A program made the translations under genes and the position numbers. From Polaribacter irgensii 23-P (lineage in GTDB: Bacteria; Bacteroidota; Bacteroidia; Flavobacteriales; Flavobacteriaceae): 64,000 nt of DNA. Shown one piece after another: positions 15,535 through 25,191 of the stretch (its first letter is position 1; every line of letters begins with the position of its first letter). Under the pieces are notes generated by a model that saw only the letters and a program-made list of their open reading frames with translations, had not been told where the DNA came from and made no database searches. Location of the stretch: positions 2,558,611-2,622,610 of the forward strand of contig NZ_CH724148.1 in the NCBI RefSeq assembly GCF_000153225.1, given 5' to 3'.

Positions 15535-16712
15535 AAAAATTAGTAATTGCATACAGCGGAGGTTTAGATACCTCTTACTGTGCCGTAAGTTTATCAAAAG
15601 AATATGAAGTCCATGCAGTAAGTGTAAACACTGGTGGTTTTTCTGAGGATGAGATCAAACATATTGAAAGTAACGCTTACAAAATGGGCGTTACTAATTA
15701 TAAGAATATTGACGCCGTAGCTACCTTCTATCAAAAAGTGGTGAAGTATTTAATTTTTGGAAATGTATTAAAAAACAATAGCTATCCGCTTTCTGTCAGT
15801 GCTGAAAGAATCATACAAGCTATCGAAATTGTAGAATATGCCAAAAGTATTGGGGCAGCATATATTGCACATGGCAGCACAGGTGCAGGAAATGATCAGG
15901 TACGATTTGATATGATTTTTCAAACCTTAGCTCCAAACATTACAATTATTACTCCTATTAGAGACCAGCAATTAACCAGAAAAGAGGAAATTGACTATTT
16001 AAAATCGGAAGGTATTAATATGTCTTGGGAAAAATCCAAATATTCGGTAAATAAAGGACTTTGGGGAACAAGTGTTGGCGGGGTGGAAACTTTAAAATCA
16101 GAAAAACCTTTGCCAAACGAGGCCTACCCTTCTCAATTAAAAAAAGAGGGAGAAGAAAAAGTAACACTTACTTTTAAAAATGGAGAATTTGTTGCTTTCA
16201 ACGGCATAGAAAATTTGCCTGAACTTAATATTGAAAAATTAAATGAGATTGCTGCAGGCTATGCAATTGGAAGAGACATCCATGTTGGCGACACTATTGT
16301 TGGAACAAAGGGGAGAGTTGGTTTTGAGGCTGCTGCAGCACTAATCACTATAAAAGCACACCATTTACTAGAGAAACATACTTTGACAAAATGGCAATTG
16401 CAACACAAAGAATATTTATCAAGTTTCTATGGAATGCATTTACACGAGGGCCAGTATTTAGACCCTGTAATGAGAGACACAGAGGTGTTCCTGCAAAGCT
16501 CACAAAAGATGGTCTCCGGAAATGTTGTGGTGCGCTTAAAGCCATATCACTTTTCTTTGGATGGAATTATTTCTGAACATGACTTAATGTCTAGCAGTTT
16601 TAGCACCTATGGAGAGGAAAACAGAGCATGGACCGCAACCGATGCCAAAGGTTTTATAAAAATCCTAGGAAATCAGAACAAAATATATCAACAAGTAAAC
16701 TCAAAAATATGA
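15531..16712 (+). CDS. argG: Argininosuccinate synthase
   Basis: This 393-residue cytosolic ligase joins citrulline and aspartate, using ATP, to form argininosuccinate. The N-terminal PP-loop AYSGGLDTSY is at residues 8-17, followed by the GSTGAGNDQVRFD substrate region (about 116-128) and the family's WGTSVGGVET motif near 178. Length and motifs are normal for the short bacterial ArgG. It overlaps both neighbours by four bases (ATGA), so translation is likely coupled to the GNAT upstream and argC downstream. Confidence 0.97.
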   Translation: MKKLVIAYSGGLDTSYCAVSLSKEYEVHAVSVNTGGFSEDEIKHIESNAYKMGVTNYKNIDAVATFYQKVVKYLIFGNVLKNNSYPLSVSAERIIQAIEIVEYAKSIGAAYIAHGSTGAGNDQVRFDMIFQTLAPNITIITPIRDQQLTRKEEIDYLKSEGINMSWEKSKYSVNKGLWGTSVGGVETLKSEKPLPNEAYPSQLKKEGEEKVTLTFKNGEFVAFNGIENLPELNIEKLNEIAAGYAIGRDIHVGDTIVGTKGRVGFEAAAALITIKAHHLLEKHTLTKWQLQHKEYLSSFYGMHLHEGQYLDPVMRDTEVFLQSSQKMVSGNVVVRLKPYHFSLDGIISEHDLMSSSFSTYGEENRAWTATDAKGFIKILGNQNKIYQQVNSKI

Positions 16713-17686
16713 TCACAGTAGGCATTATTGGCGGCGCTGGATATACCGCAGGAGAATTGATACGGTTGTTGCTACATCATCCAGAAACAAGCATAAATTT
16801 TGTATACAGCACCTCGAATGCTGGTAATAAAATATACCAAATACATCAAGATTTAATTGGTAGCACTGAAATGAATTTTACTCAAGAAATTAATGCAGAT
16901 GTCGATGTCCTCTTTTTATGCTTAGGTCACGGAAATTCAACCGCTTTTCTTCAGAAGCATTCCTTTTCTGACAGTACAAAAATTATTGATTTAAGCAATG
17001 ATTTTAGATTGGCTACCGATAAAAATTTCGGAGAGAAAGCGTTTGTATATGGTTTGCCTGAATTGCAAAAAGAAAAGATAAAAGAAGCCAATTACATTGC
17101 AAACCCTGGTTGTTTTGCAACGGCCTTACAGTTGGCAATTTTACCTTTAGCTGCAAACGGACTTTTGCATAGTGACGTGCATATAAATGCGGTGACTGGA
17201 GCAACTGGAGCCGGAACCTCCTTCTCTACTACTACACATTTTACATGGAGAGATAATAACTATACACACTACAAAGCTTTTGACCATCAACATTTAGGTG
17301 AAATACATCAAACAGTGCAGCAGTTGCAACCTAATTTTAATGCAGAAATAAACTTTTTGCCAAACAGAGGAAATTTTTCTCGAGGCATCTTTGCTACGAG
17401 CTACACAAAGTTTGAGGATAGTCTTGAAGCAGCGATCAAGATATACCAAGAATACTACAAAGACGCTGCTTTTACCTTTGTTTCAACAAATGATATACAT
17501 ATGAAACAGGTAGTAAACACTAATAAATGCATACTCCACTTGGCGAAACACGGCAATAAATTACTAATTACAAGTACCCTCGATAATCTTTTAAAAGGAG
17601 CTTCTGGACAGGCACTTCAAAATATGAATTTAATGTACGGACTTGAGGAGTGTTTAGGATTAAATTTAAAAGCCAATTATTTTTAA
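16709..17686 (+). CDS. argC: N-acyl-gamma-glutamyl-phosphate reductase
   Basis: This 325-residue NADPH-dependent enzyme reduces the N-acylglutamyl phosphate made by ArgB to the semialdehyde. I chose the ATG at 16709 because it directly precedes the Rossmann motif GIIGGAGYTAGELIRLL and overlaps the argG stop as ATGA; the frame is open 27 codons further up, but that part overlaps argG. The catalytic Cys lies in NPGCFAT near residue 134, and GATGAG follows. Length is normal. Confidence 0.95.
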   Translation: MITVGIIGGAGYTAGELIRLLLHHPETSINFVYSTSNAGNKIYQIHQDLIGSTEMNFTQEINADVDVLFLCLGHGNSTAFLQKHSFSDSTKIIDLSNDFRLATDKNFGEKAFVYGLPELQKEKIKEANYIANPGCFATALQLAILPLAANGLLHSDVHINAVTGATGAGTSFSTTTHFTWRDNNYTHYKAFDHQHLGEIHQTVQQLQPNFNAEINFLPNRGNFSRGIFATSYTKFEDSLEAAIKIYQEYYKDAAFTFVSTNDIHMKQVVNTNKCILHLAKHGNKLLITSTLDNLLKGASGQALQNMNLMYGLEECLGLNLKANYF

Positions 17687-17700
17687 AACCAACAACTCAT

Positions 17701-18492
17701 ATGAAAATAGCAATTATTGGAGCGGGAAGTTTAGGACAATCTATCGCGAAAGGACTATTAAAAAATGAAGTGGTTCAGACTTTGTATTTGACAAAAAGAA
17801 ATACAAACACACTTCAAAGTTTTACCAATTTCAAAGAAGTTATTTTGACTTCAAATAATCAAGAAGCCGTTAAAAATGCTGATATTTTAATTTTTGCTGT
17901 GCAGCCAAAACACTTAGAGCATATCTTAACCAACATACAACCACTGCTATTTGATAGGCATATTTTAATCTCTGTAATTACCGGTTTTTCTATTGCTAAA
18001 ATAGAAGCTATTGTTGGACCTAATATCACTATTATTCGAGCAATGCCAAATACTGCGTCGGCCGTTGGACAATCGATGACCTGCATCTCTGCAAATACAA
18101 GTGGAAAAGAAAAGGTTACATTGGCAAAAACTATATTTAATAGTTTGGGAAACACCTTAGAAATTCCTGAAGAACAATTACAAGCAGCCACCGTTATTTG
18201 TGCGAGTGGAATTGCTTTTTGGATGCGTTTGATTAGAGCAACCACACAAGGAGCGATTCAATTGGGCTTTGAAGCACACGAAGCGCACGAATTAGCTATG
18301 CAAACTTGTTTTGGTGCTGCCAGTCTTTTAAAAGAATCTGGAAACCATCCTGAAGTAGAAATAGACCGTGTTACCACACCTGGAGGTTGCACAATTGAAG
18401 GTCTGAATGAAATGGAACACCAAGGTTTAAGTTCCTCACTAATCAAGGGAATTAAAAAATCTTTTGATAAAATTAACCAAATAAAAAACTAA
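17701..18492 (+). CDS. proC: Pyrroline-5-carboxylate reductase
   Basis: This 263-residue NAD(P)H-dependent enzyme makes the last step of proline synthesis. The start at 17701 gives the dinucleotide motif MKIAIIGAGSLGQSIAKG; the frame extends 17 codons upstream, overlapping argC, without conserved sequence. The signature region near the end reads TTPGGCTIEGLNEME, the usual P5CR motif. Its place inside the arginine operon means arginine and proline supply are controlled together. The next gene starts after three bases. Confidence 0.95.
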   Translation: MKIAIIGAGSLGQSIAKGLLKNEVVQTLYLTKRNTNTLQSFTNFKEVILTSNNQEAVKNADILIFAVQPKHLEHILTNIQPLLFDRHILISVITGFSIAKIEAIVGPNITIIRAMPNTASAVGQSMTCISANTSGKEKVTLAKTIFNSLGNTLEIPEEQLQAATVICASGIAFWMRLIRATTQGAIQLGFEAHEAHELAMQTCFGAASLLKESGNHPEVEIDRVTTPGGCTIEGLNEMEHQGLSSSLIKGIKKSFDKINQIKN

Positions 18493-18495
18493 ACC

Positions 18496-19626
18496 ATGTC
18501 TGTATTTAACGTTTATCCCCTGTACGAAGTCACCCCTGTTTCCGCAAAAGGAATCTATGTGTATGACAAAAATAACACCGAATATTTAGATTTGTATGGA
18601 GGTCATGCCGTAATTTCTATCGGACACTCACACCCCAAATACGTGGAAGCAATTACCAATCAAGTTGCAAAATTAGGATTCTATTCTAATGCAGTTCAAA
18701 ATCCCTTACAGGAGGAGTTGGCTGCTAAAATTGAGTCCCTTTCTGGCTGTAAAGACTATGCGCTCTTTTTGTGCAATTCTGGCGCCGAAGCAAATGAAAA
18801 TGCATTAAAACTTGCCTCTTTCAAAACGAATAAATCGAGAGTAATCGCATTCAAAAACGGATTTCATGGCAGAACTTCTGCTGCAGTAGCAGTGACTGAT
18901 AATGCGGCCATAATTGCTCCTATCAACGCACAACAAGAAGTAACTATTTTAGAATTAAATGACATTAAAAGTGTACAACGAGAACTTGAAAAAGGAGATG
19001 TCTGTGCTGTCATTGTAGAGTTTATTCAAGGTGTCGGCGGATTGGACCAAGCAAATGCTGCCTTTTTTGAACAATTGGATCTTCTTTGCAAAGCCAACAA
19101 CACCTTGTTTATTGCAGATGAAGTACAATCTGGTTACGGACGGTCAGGAAAATTCTTTGCCTTTCAATATTACAAACTCACTCCAGACATTATCTCAATT
19201 GCAAAAGGAATGGGAAATGGATTTCCAATTGGTGGAATATTAATCCATCCCTCAATTGAGGCGAAGTTCGGAATGCTAGGAACTACTTTTGGTGGAAACC
19301 ACCTCGCTTGTGTTGCAGGGTTGTCCGTGTTAACTGTAATCGAAGACGACCATCTTATAGAAAATGTGAATGAGATGTCTGCATACTTTATCAAAATTGC
19401 AAACACAATCCCACAAATAAAAAAGACAAAAGGCCGAGGACTGATGCTTGGTTTGGAATTTGACTTTGAAGTTGCCAACTTAAGAAAAAAATTAATTTAC
19501 GAGCACCATATTTTTACAGGAGGTGCTTCGAATAAAAAAGTCCTGCGAATTTTACCACCATTAAATATTGACAAAGAACACATCCATCAGTTTTTTGACG
19601 CATTGGTTGCTGCCCTTGACAACTAA
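18496..19626 (+). CDS. argD: Acetylornithine (or succinylornithine) aminotransferase
   Basis: This 376-residue class III PLP aminotransferase converts the N-acyl glutamate semialdehyde to N-acylornithine. Visible are the N-terminal GGHAVISIGHSHP, CNSGAEANENALKLA near residue 93, the PLP-aspartate motif FIADEVQSGYGRSG near 197, and the PLP lysine in SIAKGMGNGFPIGG near 237. It is closer to ArgD than to RocD in length and in its operon. Some Bacteroidetes genes of this kind are labelled ornithine aminotransferase, so a side activity towards free ornithine is possible. Confidence 0.93.
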   Translation: MSVFNVYPLYEVTPVSAKGIYVYDKNNTEYLDLYGGHAVISIGHSHPKYVEAITNQVAKLGFYSNAVQNPLQEELAAKIESLSGCKDYALFLCNSGAEANENALKLASFKTNKSRVIAFKNGFHGRTSAAVAVTDNAAIIAPINAQQEVTILELNDIKSVQRELEKGDVCAVIVEFIQGVGGLDQANAAFFEQLDLLCKANNTLFIADEVQSGYGRSGKFFAFQYYKLTPDIISIAKGMGNGFPIGGILIHPSIEAKFGMLGTTFGGNHLACVAGLSVLTVIEDDHLIENVNEMSAYFIKIANTIPQIKKTKGRGLMLGLEFDFEVANLRKKLIYEHHIFTGGASNKKVLRILPPLNIDKEHIHQFFDALVAALDN

Positions 19627-19661: not shown

Positions 19662-20942
19662 ATGAATACCTTGTTATCCATATCAACTAGAAATAATGTT
19701 TTGCGAAGCATGGCGGATCCTCTTAACAAAGAAAGAGCTGCCATTATTAAAAGTAACAAAGAGGATATGGCGCGCTATACGGGAGCAGACATTTCGATGT
19801 TGGAGCGTCTCAAAGTAGCTCATTATAAAGTAGACGAGATGATCTTCGCTGCAAAACATTTAGCTGCTCAAGAGGATCTTATTTGCGTGGAATGTTTTAG
19901 TTTTAAGCATGACAATGGTCTTCAAGTAGACAAGAAAACCGCTTCTTTTGGAAGCGTTTTAATCATTTACGAATCGCGATCTGATATAACGCAAGAAGCC
20001 GCAGGAATTGCTTTTAAATCTAGAAATAAAATCCTTTTAAAAGGAGGAAAAGAATCTTTAAAATCAAATCTTAAAATTGTTGACTTGTGGCATACCGCTT
20101 TAAAACAAAACGATGCTGCCTTAAATTGGGTAACTTATTTACCCTGTATCTTCACGGAAATGGTCAAATGCGATAATATGCAGGAAAAGAAACGCATTTT
20201 AATAAAGATAGGTTCTCATACATTGACAAAGGAAACCGATAATATCTCTCGAGGAAAAATTGAAGATATGGCCAATCAAATCGCAAAACTCAAAGATACC
20301 TGTGAATTTATTATTGTAAGTTCCGGCGCGATCGCAGTGGCAAAACAATTTGTAAAATTAGAAAGTAAGCAATCAAGAGTTTTTGTGAGGCCAGCCTTAG
20401 CCTCTATTGGACAACCACACTTGATCCGAATTTATCAAGAAATATTTAGAGAATATGGCCTGTTAAGTACGCAGTGTTTGCTCTCCTATTCAGATTTTGA
20501 AAAACTCCAAAGTAAAACAAATATTGTAAATACCATTAATGTATTGGTGCACGACAAATACATTCCAATTATCAATAAAAATGAGACGGTTGCTACCGAT
20601 GAGATTCAATTTGGAGATAATGAAAAACTAGCTGCATTCACCGCTGTTTTATTAGAGGTAGATCTCTTAATAATAGCCACCAATACCTATGGAATTTACA
20701 CCAAAGAATCCCTGCAAAATAAACATCCTAAAACTATTTTTGGAGTGATTAATTTGGACACTTTGAAAAATGAGGTTGTAAATTCTAAATCTTCTCATGG
20801 AAGTGGTGGAATGCACTCTAAAATTGAAGCGGCTACTTTAAGCCAAAAGGCACAGATAGAAACACGGATTGTAAACGGATTGGAAGATAATTTTATTACG
20901 AATGCCTTTGGAAACAAAGTTTCGTTTACAAAAATAAAATAG
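19662..20942 (+). CDS. Fusion of a truncated ProA (glutamyl-phosphate reductase) to ProB (glutamate 5-kinase)
   Basis: This 426-residue protein has two parts. Residues 1 to about 165 resemble the N-terminal third of ProA (NTLLSISTRNNVLRSMAD; GIAFKSRNKILLKGGKES), but the catalytic-Cys domain and C-terminus are absent. From about residue 173 it is a glutamate 5-kinase amino-acid-kinase domain (RILIKIGSHTL, IIVSSGAIAVAK, ALASIGQPHL, GSGGMHSKIEAA) with no PUA domain. The order is the reverse of plant and animal P5CS (kinase first). An in-frame ATG at 20178 could start the kinase alone. Kinase motifs deviate from the usual NENDTV (NKNETV here) and GDND (GDNE here). Reductase activity must come from elsewhere, and kinase activity is not certain. 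Confidence 0.88.
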   Translation: MNTLLSISTRNNVLRSMADPLNKERAAIIKSNKEDMARYTGADISMLERLKVAHYKVDEMIFAAKHLAAQEDLICVECFSFKHDNGLQVDKKTASFGSVLIIYESRSDITQEAAGIAFKSRNKILLKGGKESLKSNLKIVDLWHTALKQNDAALNWVTYLPCIFTEMVKCDNMQEKKRILIKIGSHTLTKETDNISRGKIEDMANQIAKLKDTCEFIIVSSGAIAVAKQFVKLESKQSRVFVRPALASIGQPHLIRIYQEIFREYGLLSTQCLLSYSDFEKLQSKTNIVNTINVLVHDKYIPIINKNETVATDEIQFGDNEKLAAFTAVLLEVDLLIIATNTYGIYTKESLQNKHPKTIFGVINLDTLKNEVVNSKSSHGSGGMHSKIEAATLSQKAQIETRIVNGLEDNFITNAFGNKVSFTKIK

Positions 20943-20948
20943 ATAACA

Positions 20949-21887
20949 ATGAAAAAGTATACTTCTATAAACGACATTGACAATTTGACCTCATGGATTG
21001 AAGAAGCTAAAGAGCTCAAAGAAAATCCTTTAAAACATTGTGCCTTAGGTACAAAAAAAACTTTGGGACTGTTATTTTTTAACACCAGTTTGCGCACGCG
21101 CTTAAGCACGCAAAAAGCAGCTTTAAACTTGGGAATGGATCCTATTGTTATGAATGTTTCTGGTGATGCCTGGGGAATTGAATTTGAAGATGGTTCAATA
21201 ATGAATGGAAGCACAGCAGAGCATATTAAGGAAGCTGCAGCCGTGGTTTCTCAGTATTGCGATATGATCGCCGTAAGAGCTTTTCCGTCTTTAAAAGACA
21301 AAGAGCAAGACGAAGCAGAGCACGTTTTAAAAGCTTTCATGAAATATGCTTCAGTACCCGTAATAAGTATGGAAAGCGCGACAGAGCACCCTTTACAAGG
21401 CTTCACAGATGCCATTACTATTTCTGAAAATACAAAGAAAAAAAGACCAAAAGTTGTATTAAGTTGGGCACCACATGTGAACGCATTGCCCCATGCCGTT
21501 GCCAATAGTTTTGTACAAGCCATGCAGAAGATGGATGTTGAATTTATAATTACCAATCCTAAGGGATACAATTTAAATAGTGCGATTACAAAAGAGACAA
21601 CCATTGAACACGATCAAATAGTTGCTTTAAAAAATGCAGATTTTGTTTATGCCAAAAACTGGAGTTCTTATGAGGATTATGGAAAAATATTAAATACAGA
21701 TACTGCTTGGATGCTCACGAAAGAAAAATTAGGAAATGCTAAATTCATGCACTGCCTTCCTGTAAGAAGAAATTTAGTGGCAGAGGATGCTGTATTAGAT
21801 AGCAACGCTTCGCTGGTTATCGAACAAGCCAATAATAGAACGTACGCTGCTCAATTGGTTTTAAAAAAGATTTTAGAGAATTTATAG
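20949..21887 (+). CDS. argF': N-acylornithine carbamoyltransferase (succinyl- or acetyl-ornithine type)
   Basis: This 312-residue enzyme carbamoylates N-acylornithine rather than free ornithine, the Bacteroidetes variant of the pathway. The carbamoyl-phosphate motif FNTSLRTR is at 44-51, HPLQ near 147, the late HCLPVRR near 274, and the end resembles Bacteroides fragilis SOTCase (QLVLKKILENL). The residue before EHIKEA is Ala90, at the position that is Pro90 in the Bacteroides succinyl enzyme and Glu92 in the Xanthomonas acetyl enzyme, from memory of the published structures. A small residue there favours succinylornithine, but this needs testing. It starts six bases after the ProA/ProB fusion. 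Confidence 0.92.
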   Translation: MKKYTSINDIDNLTSWIEEAKELKENPLKHCALGTKKTLGLLFFNTSLRTRLSTQKAALNLGMDPIVMNVSGDAWGIEFEDGSIMNGSTAEHIKEAAAVVSQYCDMIAVRAFPSLKDKEQDEAEHVLKAFMKYASVPVISMESATEHPLQGFTDAITISENTKKKRPKVVLSWAPHVNALPHAVANSFVQAMQKMDVEFIITNPKGYNLNSAITKETTIEHDQIVALKNADFVYAKNWSSYEDYGKILNTDTAWMLTKEKLGNAKFMHCLPVRRNLVAEDAVLDSNASLVIEQANNRTYAAQLVLKKILENL

Positions 21888-21970: not shown

Positions 21971-22747
21971 ATGGAAAAATTATCAATCGTAAAAATTGGA
22001 GGAAATATAATTGAAAATGAAATTGCTTTGCATACTTTTCTTCAATTATTTTCTTCGATAGAAGGAAAAAAAATCTTAGTACACGGAGGCGGAAAACGCG
22101 CTACAGAATTTGCAGTAAAATTAGGCTTAGCACCCAAAATAATTTCTGGTAGACGTCTCACAGATGCTCAAAGCTTAGAGGTTATCACCATGGTATACGG
22201 AGGACTGGTTAATAAGAATATCGTTGCAAAACTGCAAGCTTTAAAAATTAATGCTATCGGATTATCGGGTGCAGATGCAAACAGTATACGCGCTAAAAAA
22301 AGACCGATAACCCCAATCGATTTCGGCTTTGTGGGAGATGTAAAAGAAGTTAGTTCCAACGCAATTGATGCGTTAATTCAAGCCAGTTTTACACCAGTTT
22401 TCTGCGCCATCACGCATGACGGAAATGGGCAACTTTTAAATACAAATGCAGATACAATTGCCAGTCAGATTTCCATTTCGATGAGCAAAAGTTACGCAAC
22501 AGTACTTTATTATTGTTTTGAATTGAATGGTGTTTTAAGAAATTTCAATGACAAAACATCCGTAATACAGCACCTCAATACCACCCGCTATCAAGGATTA
22601 TTAAAAGCCGGTATTATTGCTGACGGAATGCTACCAAAATTAGAAAACTGTTTTGATGCCTTGAAAAATGGCGTTGCCAAAGTACACATAGGAAATACAG
22701 AAATGCTCACAAAAGAAAACGATAATTTCACAACAATTACCTTATAA
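21971..22747 (+). CDS. argB: N-acylglutamate kinase
   Basis: This 258-residue amino-acid kinase phosphorylates the N-acylated glutamate. The N-terminal KIGGNII loop, the glycine-rich LVHGGGKRATE near residue 40, GLSGADANSI near 98, and the C-terminal KAGIIADGMLPKLENC with the following GVAKVHIGN are the ArgB signatures. Length is normal. The N-terminal arginine-sensing helix of feedback-inhibited hexameric NAGKs is absent, so simple arginine inhibition is unlikely. An 83-base gap from argF' could hold a weak promoter. Confidence 0.94.
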   Translation: MEKLSIVKIGGNIIENEIALHTFLQLFSSIEGKKILVHGGGKRATEFAVKLGLAPKIISGRRLTDAQSLEVITMVYGGLVNKNIVAKLQALKINAIGLSGADANSIRAKKRPITPIDFGFVGDVKEVSSNAIDALIQASFTPVFCAITHDGNGQLLNTNADTIASQISISMSKSYATVLYYCFELNGVLRNFNDKTSVIQHLNTTRYQGLLKAGIIADGMLPKLENCFDALKNGVAKVHIGNTEMLTKENDNFTTITL

Positions 22748-22748
22748 T

Positions 22749-23822
22749 ATGAATGTCGAAAAGCTCACAGAAAACGCAATTTCTCTTTTAACAAAATTAA
22801 TTGAAACGCCTTCATTTTCACAAGAAGAAGAAAATACAGCCTTACTTATTTCCGAGTGGTTTCTACAACATGATATTCCCTTCAAAAGCACAAAGAATAA
22901 CATTTGGGCAGTGAATAAATATTTTGACGAAAGCAAGCCAACACTGCTGTTAAACTCTCATCACGATACTGTAAAACCAAATTCTGCCTACACCAAAAAT
23001 CCTTTTAAAGCTAGTGTTGAAGACGGAAAATTATATGGTTTAGGAAGCAATGATGCTGGTGGATGTTTAGTCTCACTACTTGCCGCTTTTACAAATTTTT
23101 ACCCTGCAGAAAACCTTTGCTATAACCTTGTAATCGTGGCCTCTGCTGAAGAAGAAAATAGTGGTAAAAATGGATTGAATAGCATGCTTCCAATACTTCC
23201 ACACATAGATGTAGCGATCGTAGGAGAACCGACTTTAATGCAGTTGGCAGTTGCAGAAAAAGGCTTGGTTGTCTTTGATGCTGTTGTTGCTGGAACTCCA
23301 AGTCATGCTGCACACACAAATGAACACAATGCTATTTACAACAGTATTGAAGTTTTACAATGGTTTAAAGATTTTAAATTCGAAAAAAAATCAGATGCTT
23401 TAGGTGCGGTGAAAATGACAGTAACGCAAATCTCTGCAGGATCTCAGCACAATGTTGTTCCTGCACATGTTGATTTAGTAATAGATGTTCGCGTAAATGA
23501 CGCCTACTCAAATGAAGAAATTACAGCGATTTTACAAAAAGAATCCCCCTGCTCAAAGATTACGCCAAGAAGCTTGCGTTTAAACTCTTCTGCCATCGCT
23601 ATCGATCATGAATTGGTAAAAGCAGGTATTGCAATTGGAAGAGACACCTATGGTTCTCCAACCCTCTCGGACCAAGCAGTCTTAAGTTGTCAATCCTTGA
23701 AACTAGGACCTGGAGATAGCACGCGCTCTCATTCTGCTAACGAGTTTATTTATCTTCAAGAGATTGAAGAAGGCATTCGACTTTACATCGCTTTATTAAA
23801 CCGCGTAATTACTCAGAAATAA
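22749..23822 (+). CDS. argE: M20 family N-acylornithine/N-acylcitrulline deacylase
   Basis: This 357-residue metallo-deacylase removes the acyl group after carbamoylation, giving citrulline for ArgG. Metal ligands fall in SHHDTVKP (His near 73), GSNDAGG (about 98-104), the catalytic SAEEENSG (about 130-137) and VGEPT. The dimerisation domain includes GTPSHAAHTNEHNA. Since ArgF' acts on N-acylornithine, the expected substrate is the acyl-citrulline. The start follows the argB stop by one base. The C-terminal metal-binding GDSTRSHSANEF is also intact. Confidence 0.93.
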   Translation: MNVEKLTENAISLLTKLIETPSFSQEEENTALLISEWFLQHDIPFKSTKNNIWAVNKYFDESKPTLLLNSHHDTVKPNSAYTKNPFKASVEDGKLYGLGSNDAGGCLVSLLAAFTNFYPAENLCYNLVIVASAEEENSGKNGLNSMLPILPHIDVAIVGEPTLMQLAVAEKGLVVFDAVVAGTPSHAAHTNEHNAIYNSIEVLQWFKDFKFEKKSDALGAVKMTVTQISAGSQHNVVPAHVDLVIDVRVNDAYSNEEITAILQKESPCSKITPRSLRLNSSAIAIDHELVKAGIAIGRDTYGSPTLSDQAVLSCQSLKLGPGDSTRSHSANEFIYLQEIEEGIRLYIALLNRVITQK

Positions 23823-23916: not shown

Positions 23917-25191
23917 ATGAAACTTTGGGACAAAGGATTTTCAATAGACAAGCAAATAGAAAACTTTACCGTTGGCAACGACAGAGAAATTGATATGCAC
24001 ATCGCAAAATACGACGTGCAGGCATCTATAGCACACGCAATCATGCTTGAATCCATTGGAATTATTACAAATAATGAGTTAAAAAAATTGCAGAAAGGAC
24101 TTCGTGAATTGGCAGACGATATTGAACATAGCACTTTTATTATTGAAGCCTCCTTTGAAGATGTACATTCAAAAATTGAATGGGAACTGACCAACAAATT
24201 AGGAGAAGTAGGAAAGAAAATCCACACAGCACGTTCAAGAAACGACCAAGTTTTGGTAGCACTCCATTTATACTACAAAGAAAATCTAAGCACAATAGAT
24301 ACTAAAATACACACGCTATTTGAAACACTTTTAGATCTTGCAGAAACGCATAAAAAAAGCTTATTACCTGGATATACGCATTTACAAGTAGCCATGCCAT
24401 CTTCTTTTGGACTGTGGTTTTCTGCCTATGCAGAATTGCTGATAGATGATGTGTATATGCTGCGTGCAGTTTCTAAAGTTGTAGATCAAAACCCTCTTGG
24501 CTCTGCGGCTGGATATGGAAGTTCCTTTCCTATTGACAGGGAATTAACAACCAAAGAATTGAACTTTGCTACCCTAAAATACAATGTAGTTGCAGCGCAA
24601 TTAAGCAGAGGTAAAAGTGAACGCTCTATTGCTGCTGCATTAGGTGGGTTGTGCAACACAATGGCACGCTTTGCTATGGATGTTTGCTTATATATGAGTC
24701 AGAACTTTAATTTCATTTCTTTTCCTGACGAACTGACAACAGGGAGTAGTATTATGCCGCACAAAAAAAATCCGGATGTCTTTGAATTGATTCGTGGAAA
24801 ATGCAATAAAATTCAAGCATTACAAACAGAAATGCTACTCATTACCAATAATTTACCGACAGGTTATCACAGAGATTTTCAATTGTTAAAAGAAAATATC
24901 ATCAACGCTTTTGAAGATGTGAAAGAAATTTTAGACATCTTTAATTATGCCATTCAACAAGTTATTGTAAAAGACATTGATTTAAATGACGAAAAATATC
25001 AGTATTTATTTACTGTAGATAGTATTAATAATTTAGTTACAAATGGGATGTCATTTCGAGAAGCATATCAAAAAATTGGCGCTCAAGTGCAAGCTGGAAA
25101 ATACACTCCTGATTTGGGAAAACAACACACACATATAGGAAGTATTCATAATTTATCTCTAGATAAAATAAGAGAAAAATATCCTAGGTAG
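23917..25191 (+). CDS. argH: Argininosuccinate lyase
   Basis: This 424-residue lyase splits argininosuccinate into arginine and fumarate. It shows the family motifs TARSRNDQV near residue 108, the catalytic-histidine stretch PGYTHLQVAMP near 151, and the GSSIMPHKKNPDVFE signature loop near 277. It is shorter than many bacterial ArgH proteins (about 450-470), as is usual in Bacteroidetes. It is the last gene of the operon and is followed by a strong terminator shared with crtB. Confidence 0.96.
   Translation: MKLWDKGFSIDKQIENFTVGNDREIDMHIAKYDVQASIAHAIMLESIGIITNNELKKLQKGLRELADDIEHSTFIIEASFEDVHSKIEWELTNKLGEVGKKIHTARSRNDQVLVALHLYYKENLSTIDTKIHTLFETLLDLAETHKKSLLPGYTHLQVAMPSSFGLWFSAYAELLIDDVYMLRAVSKVVDQNPLGSAAGYGSSFPIDRELTTKELNFATLKYNVVAAQLSRGKSERSIAAALGGLCNTMARFAMDVCLYMSQNFNFISFPDELTTGSSIMPHKKNPDVFELIRGKCNKIQALQTEMLLITNNLPTGYHRDFQLLKENIINAFEDVKEILDIFNYAIQQVIVKDIDLNDEKYQYLFTVDSINNLVTNGMSFREAYQKIGAQVQAGKYTPDLGKQHTHIGSIHNLSLDKIREKYPR

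Follow-up and report, generated by a model that had tools for sequence, protein, structure and literature searches.

Organization of the Fused Locus

The window, the whole 64,000-nucleotide stretch from Polaribacter irgensii 23-P that was analyzed, carried at 19662-20942 on the forward strand a single stop-free ORF of 426 amino acids, in which the N-terminal part of ProA, without its catalytic domain, was followed by a whole ProB. Residues 5-157 matched positions 11-165 of the 398 positions in the proA profile TIGR00407 (86.8 bits, E 1.3e-24), a partial match far below the cut-off of 317 bits and without the catalytic cysteine domain. Residues 177-423 matched the proB profile TIGR01027 with 199.4 bits, above the curated cut-off of 186. 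These matches, in one open frame, bore out the proposal of a first-pass annotation that a ProA stub is joined in frame to ProB. The same annotation had described the stub as the N-terminal third of ProA lacking the catalytic domain; the domain was indeed absent, but the stub was larger, at ca. 160 residues or approximately 40% of ProA. The ProB part passed the TIGR01027 score cut-off, and its acidic motifs NEND and GDND were changed to NKNE and GDNE; because of these changes, we refer to it as a ProB-derived part rather than a working ProB. The fused frame is presumably translated.

The fusion sat in the middle of an operon on one strand, with argC, proC, and argD upstream and argF', argB, argE, and argH downstream (Table 1).

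Table 1. Features of the arginine operon and of the fused frame, in window coordinates.
Feature	Position	Strand	Basis
argC	16709..17686	+	TIGR01850, above cut-off
proC of the arginine operon	17701..18492	+	TIGR00112, above cut-off
argD-type aminotransferase	18496..19626	+	Best match TIGR00707, 355 bits, below the 410 cut-off
ProA N-terminal stub, ca. 160 codons	19662..20142	+	TIGR00407 match; proA of relatives colinear as far as ...WVTYL; junction set against L038
Three leftover bases between the matched sides of the deletion junction	20143..20145	+	Comparison with L038
Linker, old last codons of proA in the shifted (proB) frame	20146..20177	+	Locus comparison
TGC codon, two codons before the proB ATG	20169..20171	+	TAA at this site in relatives
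ProB (glutamate 5-kinase) part	20178..20942	+	TIGR01027; begins where the proB start codon of relatives sits
Kinase motif NEND to NKNE (E306K, D308E)	20577..20585	+	Residues 135 and 137 in E. coli, by alignment
Kinase motif GDND to GDNE (D321E)	20622..20624	+	Residue 150 in E. coli, by alignment
argF', acetyl/succinylornithine carbamoyltransferase type	20949..21887	+	NF003384, 279 bits, slightly below the 288 cut-off
argB	21971..22747	+	TIGR00761, above cut-off
argE/dapE-type deacylase	22749..23822	+	Best match TIGR01910, 127 bits, below the 218 cut-off
argH	23917..25191	+	TIGR00838, above cut-off

Deletion Junction and the TAA/TGC Site

The closest named loci came from Polaribacter, and their coordinates coincided with those of genomes surveyed as members of that genus. 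Most of the fetched relatives with an arginine-operon pair had proA and proB as separate genes. Compared with one of these loci, L038, the window lacked 682 bp of proA, retained three leftover bases at the junction, and was shifted in frame; the match resumed 32 bases ahead of the proB start. The intact relatives and the missing 682 bp upheld the earlier suggestion that DNA had been deleted from within a neighboring proA-proB gene pair. In L038, the stretch corresponding to the linker encoded WYVHGNGQIR followed by the stop codon in the proA frame.

At the site of the TGC codon, the proB frame contained TAA in L038, L056, L008, L060, L064, L097, and L053, and also in L037. Among 104 distinct arginine-type proB loci, 17 had an in-frame TAA at two codons' distance from the proB ATG; the others were spaced differently. 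Read in the old proA frame, the change from TAA to TGC amounts to Ile to Met plus a silent Arg change, and it may therefore have occurred either before or after the deletion. Neither the out-of-frame proA tail in the linker nor the TGC in place of the stop codon was noted in the first-pass annotation. At L037 (4880-5080), argD was without its own stop and ran into what appeared to be an old proA tail, the read-through stopping, in the proB frame, at the TAA that lies two codons upstream of proB.

Conserved Sites and Selection

The kinase motifs were compared in 135 ProB rows that shared 65% identity or more with the ProB of the fusion, three of which came from this genome, with some other genomes also present repeatedly. 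INENDTV was found in all 132 other arginine-type rows, as was FGDNDKL in 131 and FGDNDRL in one; the fusion carried INKNETV and FGDNEKL. We take the NEND and GDND acidic motifs to belong to the glutamate kinase active site. In the stub, P107S, which produces the SRSD motif, changed a residue that all other taxa in a 29-taxon alignment share. The altered motifs singled out by the first-pass annotation (SRSD, NKNETV, and GDNE) were thus real and private to this genome across the 132 ProB rows and the 29 taxa. An excerpt of PMC6099280 connects Asp137 with the proline/substrate site.

In the 29-taxon alignment, changes at otherwise invariant columns affected 12 of 93 columns in the stub and 12 of 153 in proB, against at most 2.4% (stub) and 2.8% (proB) in any other taxon, and 0 to 1.6% in seven genes elsewhere in this operon of the same genome. 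Single cases elsewhere reached 11 to 12% (proC of L042, argD of L046, and argB of L065), and such a level alone is therefore no proof of decay. Both halves had also moved away from eight outgroup loci. Mean identity to these loci was 0.687 for the stub, compared with 0.832 in other Polaribacter (lowest 0.773), and 0.780 for proB, compared with 0.848 (lowest 0.825); argF' of this genome was likewise somewhat farther from the outgroups (0.780 vs. 0.834).

Branch omega was raised in the proB part (0.159 vs. 0.068, LRT 6.7) and in the stub (0.19 vs. 0.067, LRT 4.5). Full neutrality was rejected for both parts (LRT 5.3 and 17.5) on a branch that also covers the time before the deletion. On the same branch, argB gave an omega of 0.305 vs. 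0.089 (LRT 13.6), a larger rise than in either half, with changes at 0 of 92 invariant columns, and high values were seen on several short tips, such as L038 (0.84, LRT 8.1) and L056 (0.75, LRT 5.1) for the part of their intact proA that corresponds to the stub. Because the argB rise was larger and short tips were noisy, the omega test is weak alone, and we placed more weight on the invariant columns. Taken together, outgroup identity, invariant-column changes, and branch omega agreed with the relaxed constraint that had been suggested for both parts. The frame stayed free of stops in 3.3% of 400 neutral, substitution-only simulation runs matched to the amino-acid change; since few neutral runs remained open, some constraint may remain on the frame.

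A Second Proline Operon

A profile search of the 2.76 Mb genome identified a complete second operon, proC-proB-proA, ca. 0.6 Mb from the fusion. Its proA was full-length, scoring 434 bits with NF001221 and 350 bits with TIGR00407, and its proB (ca. 219 bits) and proC (235 bits) were also above their NCBIfam cut-offs, as were both proA scores. The second-operon ProB was only distantly similar to the fused ProB (ca. 31% identity) and retained, as NEDD and SDND, the acidic positions altered in the fusion. The first-pass annotation had considered the glutamate route to proline broken if no other proA existed and had pointed to a genome search for a full-length copy; that copy was present, beside a proB and the second proC. 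The proline pathway of this genome is not broken, because a full second operon is present in the same genome.

Arrangement and Loss across Polaribacter

A search of 166 genomes of the genus with the fusion protein yielded matches in 54 and none in 112, and both parts lay in one frame in a single genome, the window's own (G000). No other fusion appeared among the matches listed for 59 relatives or for a 397-genome family sample that includes this genome. In the family sample, each genome contributed at most four scored candidates and lower-ranking matches were trimmed from the listing, but a fused match would be expected near the top. ProA was above its family cut-off in 44 of the 166 Polaribacter genomes, with nine more at 213 to 317 bits, and the argF' neighbor was matched in 144 of them, a few weakly. 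In G156 (C1:125500-126436; genome 69% complete), argF' was split over two overlapping matches, possibly by a frameshift. Within the family sample, G224, G449, and G572 each had a pair of ProB matches separated by 82 to 131 bases, resembling tandem copies.

An arginine-operon proB was present in 47 genomes of the genus, 40 of which were at least 90% complete and were tabulated by hand. Sixteen of these 40 had a second proA, and in 4 of the 16 (G000, G081, G118, and G119) the arginine-operon proA was absent or truncated; among the 24 without a second proA there was no such case (Fisher p 0.02, a test that ignores shared ancestry). The seven less complete genomes were excluded from this table, among them G115, the genome of L037, in which the arginine-operon proA was absent and no second proA was found in a genome 70% complete. 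The second-type proB of G107 (C1:565833-566603) was without a listed second-type proA; the arginine-operon pair is kept in G107.

The argD gene lay directly before proB in L037, L039, L040, L115, and L159 (the locus of G081). Six genomes have the second set only; in G013 and G105, the two of them that were inspected, argD adjoined argF', with neither proA nor proB. In a six-gene tree, the genome that carries L037 grouped with the window's genome as its sister (split support 100), and the proA losses in the two may share a step. Retention of proB without proA was thus seen several times in this operon; no clear case of proA without proB in the arginine operon was found among the genomes surveyed. 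In G151, an arginine-type proA had no listed proB, but the match lay at a contig end.

Origin of the Fusion

We consider it likely that the fusion is an eroding, redundant proA-proB pair caught in the arginine operon. The ancestor would have carried argC-proC-argD-proA-proB-argF' and the following genes as one operon, in a lineage that also possessed another operon, proC-proB-proA, related to the first only distantly. The loss of ca. 680 bp from the redundant proA would have taken out its catalytic part and placed the beginning of the gene directly before its tail, which is now read in the proB frame instead of its own; the TAA before proB, on becoming TGC, would have let the stub read on into proB, and these two events may have occurred in either order. 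Later changes at otherwise invariant sites in both halves would then have produced a remnant frame with little or no enzyme activity. The second operon may have permitted the loss of the arginine-operon proA, and it is most likely the operon by which proline is made. Judging from the altered sequence, enzyme activity appears to have been lost in the fusion, and its product is probably a poor or dead enzyme. Counted against plain decay are the open frame, the rejection of neutrality, and a ProB score above the cut-off.

Alternatively, the frame may have been kept only as a translated spacer, in which stops or frameshifts would lower expression of the downstream argF', argB, argE, and argH. The position of the gene in the middle of a same-strand operon and the 426 codons without a stop, an outcome rare in the neutral simulations, despite the relaxed appearance of both halves, are consistent with this explanation, but relatives that dropped proA, or proA and proB together, argue that a long spacer is not demanded. 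We regard the spacer as unlikely; it overlaps with erosion of the pair and is compatible with it. Somewhat less likely still is that the ProB part remains a working glutamate kinase feeding the second-operon ProA, the stub being a harmless N-terminal tail. Here the relatives are informative: L039, L040, and G081 (L159) have no arginine-operon proA yet have retained proB, the kinase motifs are intact in the proB of other Polaribacter without an arginine-operon proA, and such a proB may be useful independently. In L039 and L040, invariant-column changes were 0 of 141 and 1 of 142, respectively, and proB omega was 0.064 and 0.103, with no significant rise. The proB of G000 itself has kept its start position, a score above the family cut-off, and an omega well under 1. 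However, G000 alone among the arginine-type rows has the three acidic motif positions altered, its proB has changed at twelve invariant columns, and a complete second proB-proA pair lies elsewhere in its genome.

Two further explanations were given little credence. The fusion could have gained a new role, for instance in regulating the second ProA or ProB or in partnering one of them without catalysis of its own; in that case, a stable product with altered catalysis would use its ProA stub to join or control the second-operon enzymes. The open frame and the altered conserved sites in both halves would suit such a protein, but it is known from one genome, the changes fit decay, and a single sequence reveals no conserved new motif, so that we judge both the role and this way of acting highly improbable. 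Were it true, a gene wreck would have been turned into a regulator of proline synthesis. An assembly artefact masking a truly intact proA would explain why only one genome has the fusion, and we give this the lowest probability of all, close to negligible: divergence at conserved sites on both sides of the junction would not result from misassembly, and the sister locus L037 is also without proA, with its right end near the same place. Erosion of a redundant pair therefore remains our preferred account. It carries two cautions for annotation, namely that a chimeric gene may stem from decay and not from innovation, and that apparent gaps in a pathway need a whole-genome check.

Comparison with Known Systems

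The arrangement of a proA stub before proB was not found in the literature among the matches listed. The closest familiar protein is P5CS of animals and plants, which, like the fusion, has both proline-synthesis enzymes in one chain. According to an excerpt of PMC8963878, P5CS consists of the kinase followed by a reductase domain that comprises an NADPH-binding part and a catalytic part, and the match to the P5CS structure 8y2h ran in the same order, kinase and then reductase. In the fusion, by contrast, the reductase comes first and is incomplete, without the catalytic domain, and the score against the P5CS profile TIGR01092 was 171 bits compared with a cut-off of 797. The label "reverse of P5CS" given in the first-pass annotation therefore holds for the order of the parts but not for function, as a reductase part without its catalytic domain does not make a bifunctional enzyme.

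Partial P5CS genes in oomycetes, green algae, and trypanosomatids offer a second parallel. As argued in an excerpt of PMC11061531, one of the two domains was deleted in these genes where another copy of the enzyme probably existed, and the likeness to our locus, as far as that excerpt goes, lies in the loss of a domain alongside a probable second enzyme copy. The difference lies in the starting point: partial P5CS genes began from a fused eukaryotic gene, whereas the two bacterial genes here were separate until the deletion fused them. The nearest comparison is with the arginine operon of other flavobacteria. Loci of Polaribacter, Algibacter, and Tamlana share this gene order and are flanked on either side by orthologues, and in these loci proA and proB are separate or proA is absent, with two genomes lacking both. 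Set among them, the P. irgensii fusion would complete a snapshot of a redundant pathway copy leaving an operon, with the intact pair, the deletion fusion, proB alone, and neither gene all found within one genus.
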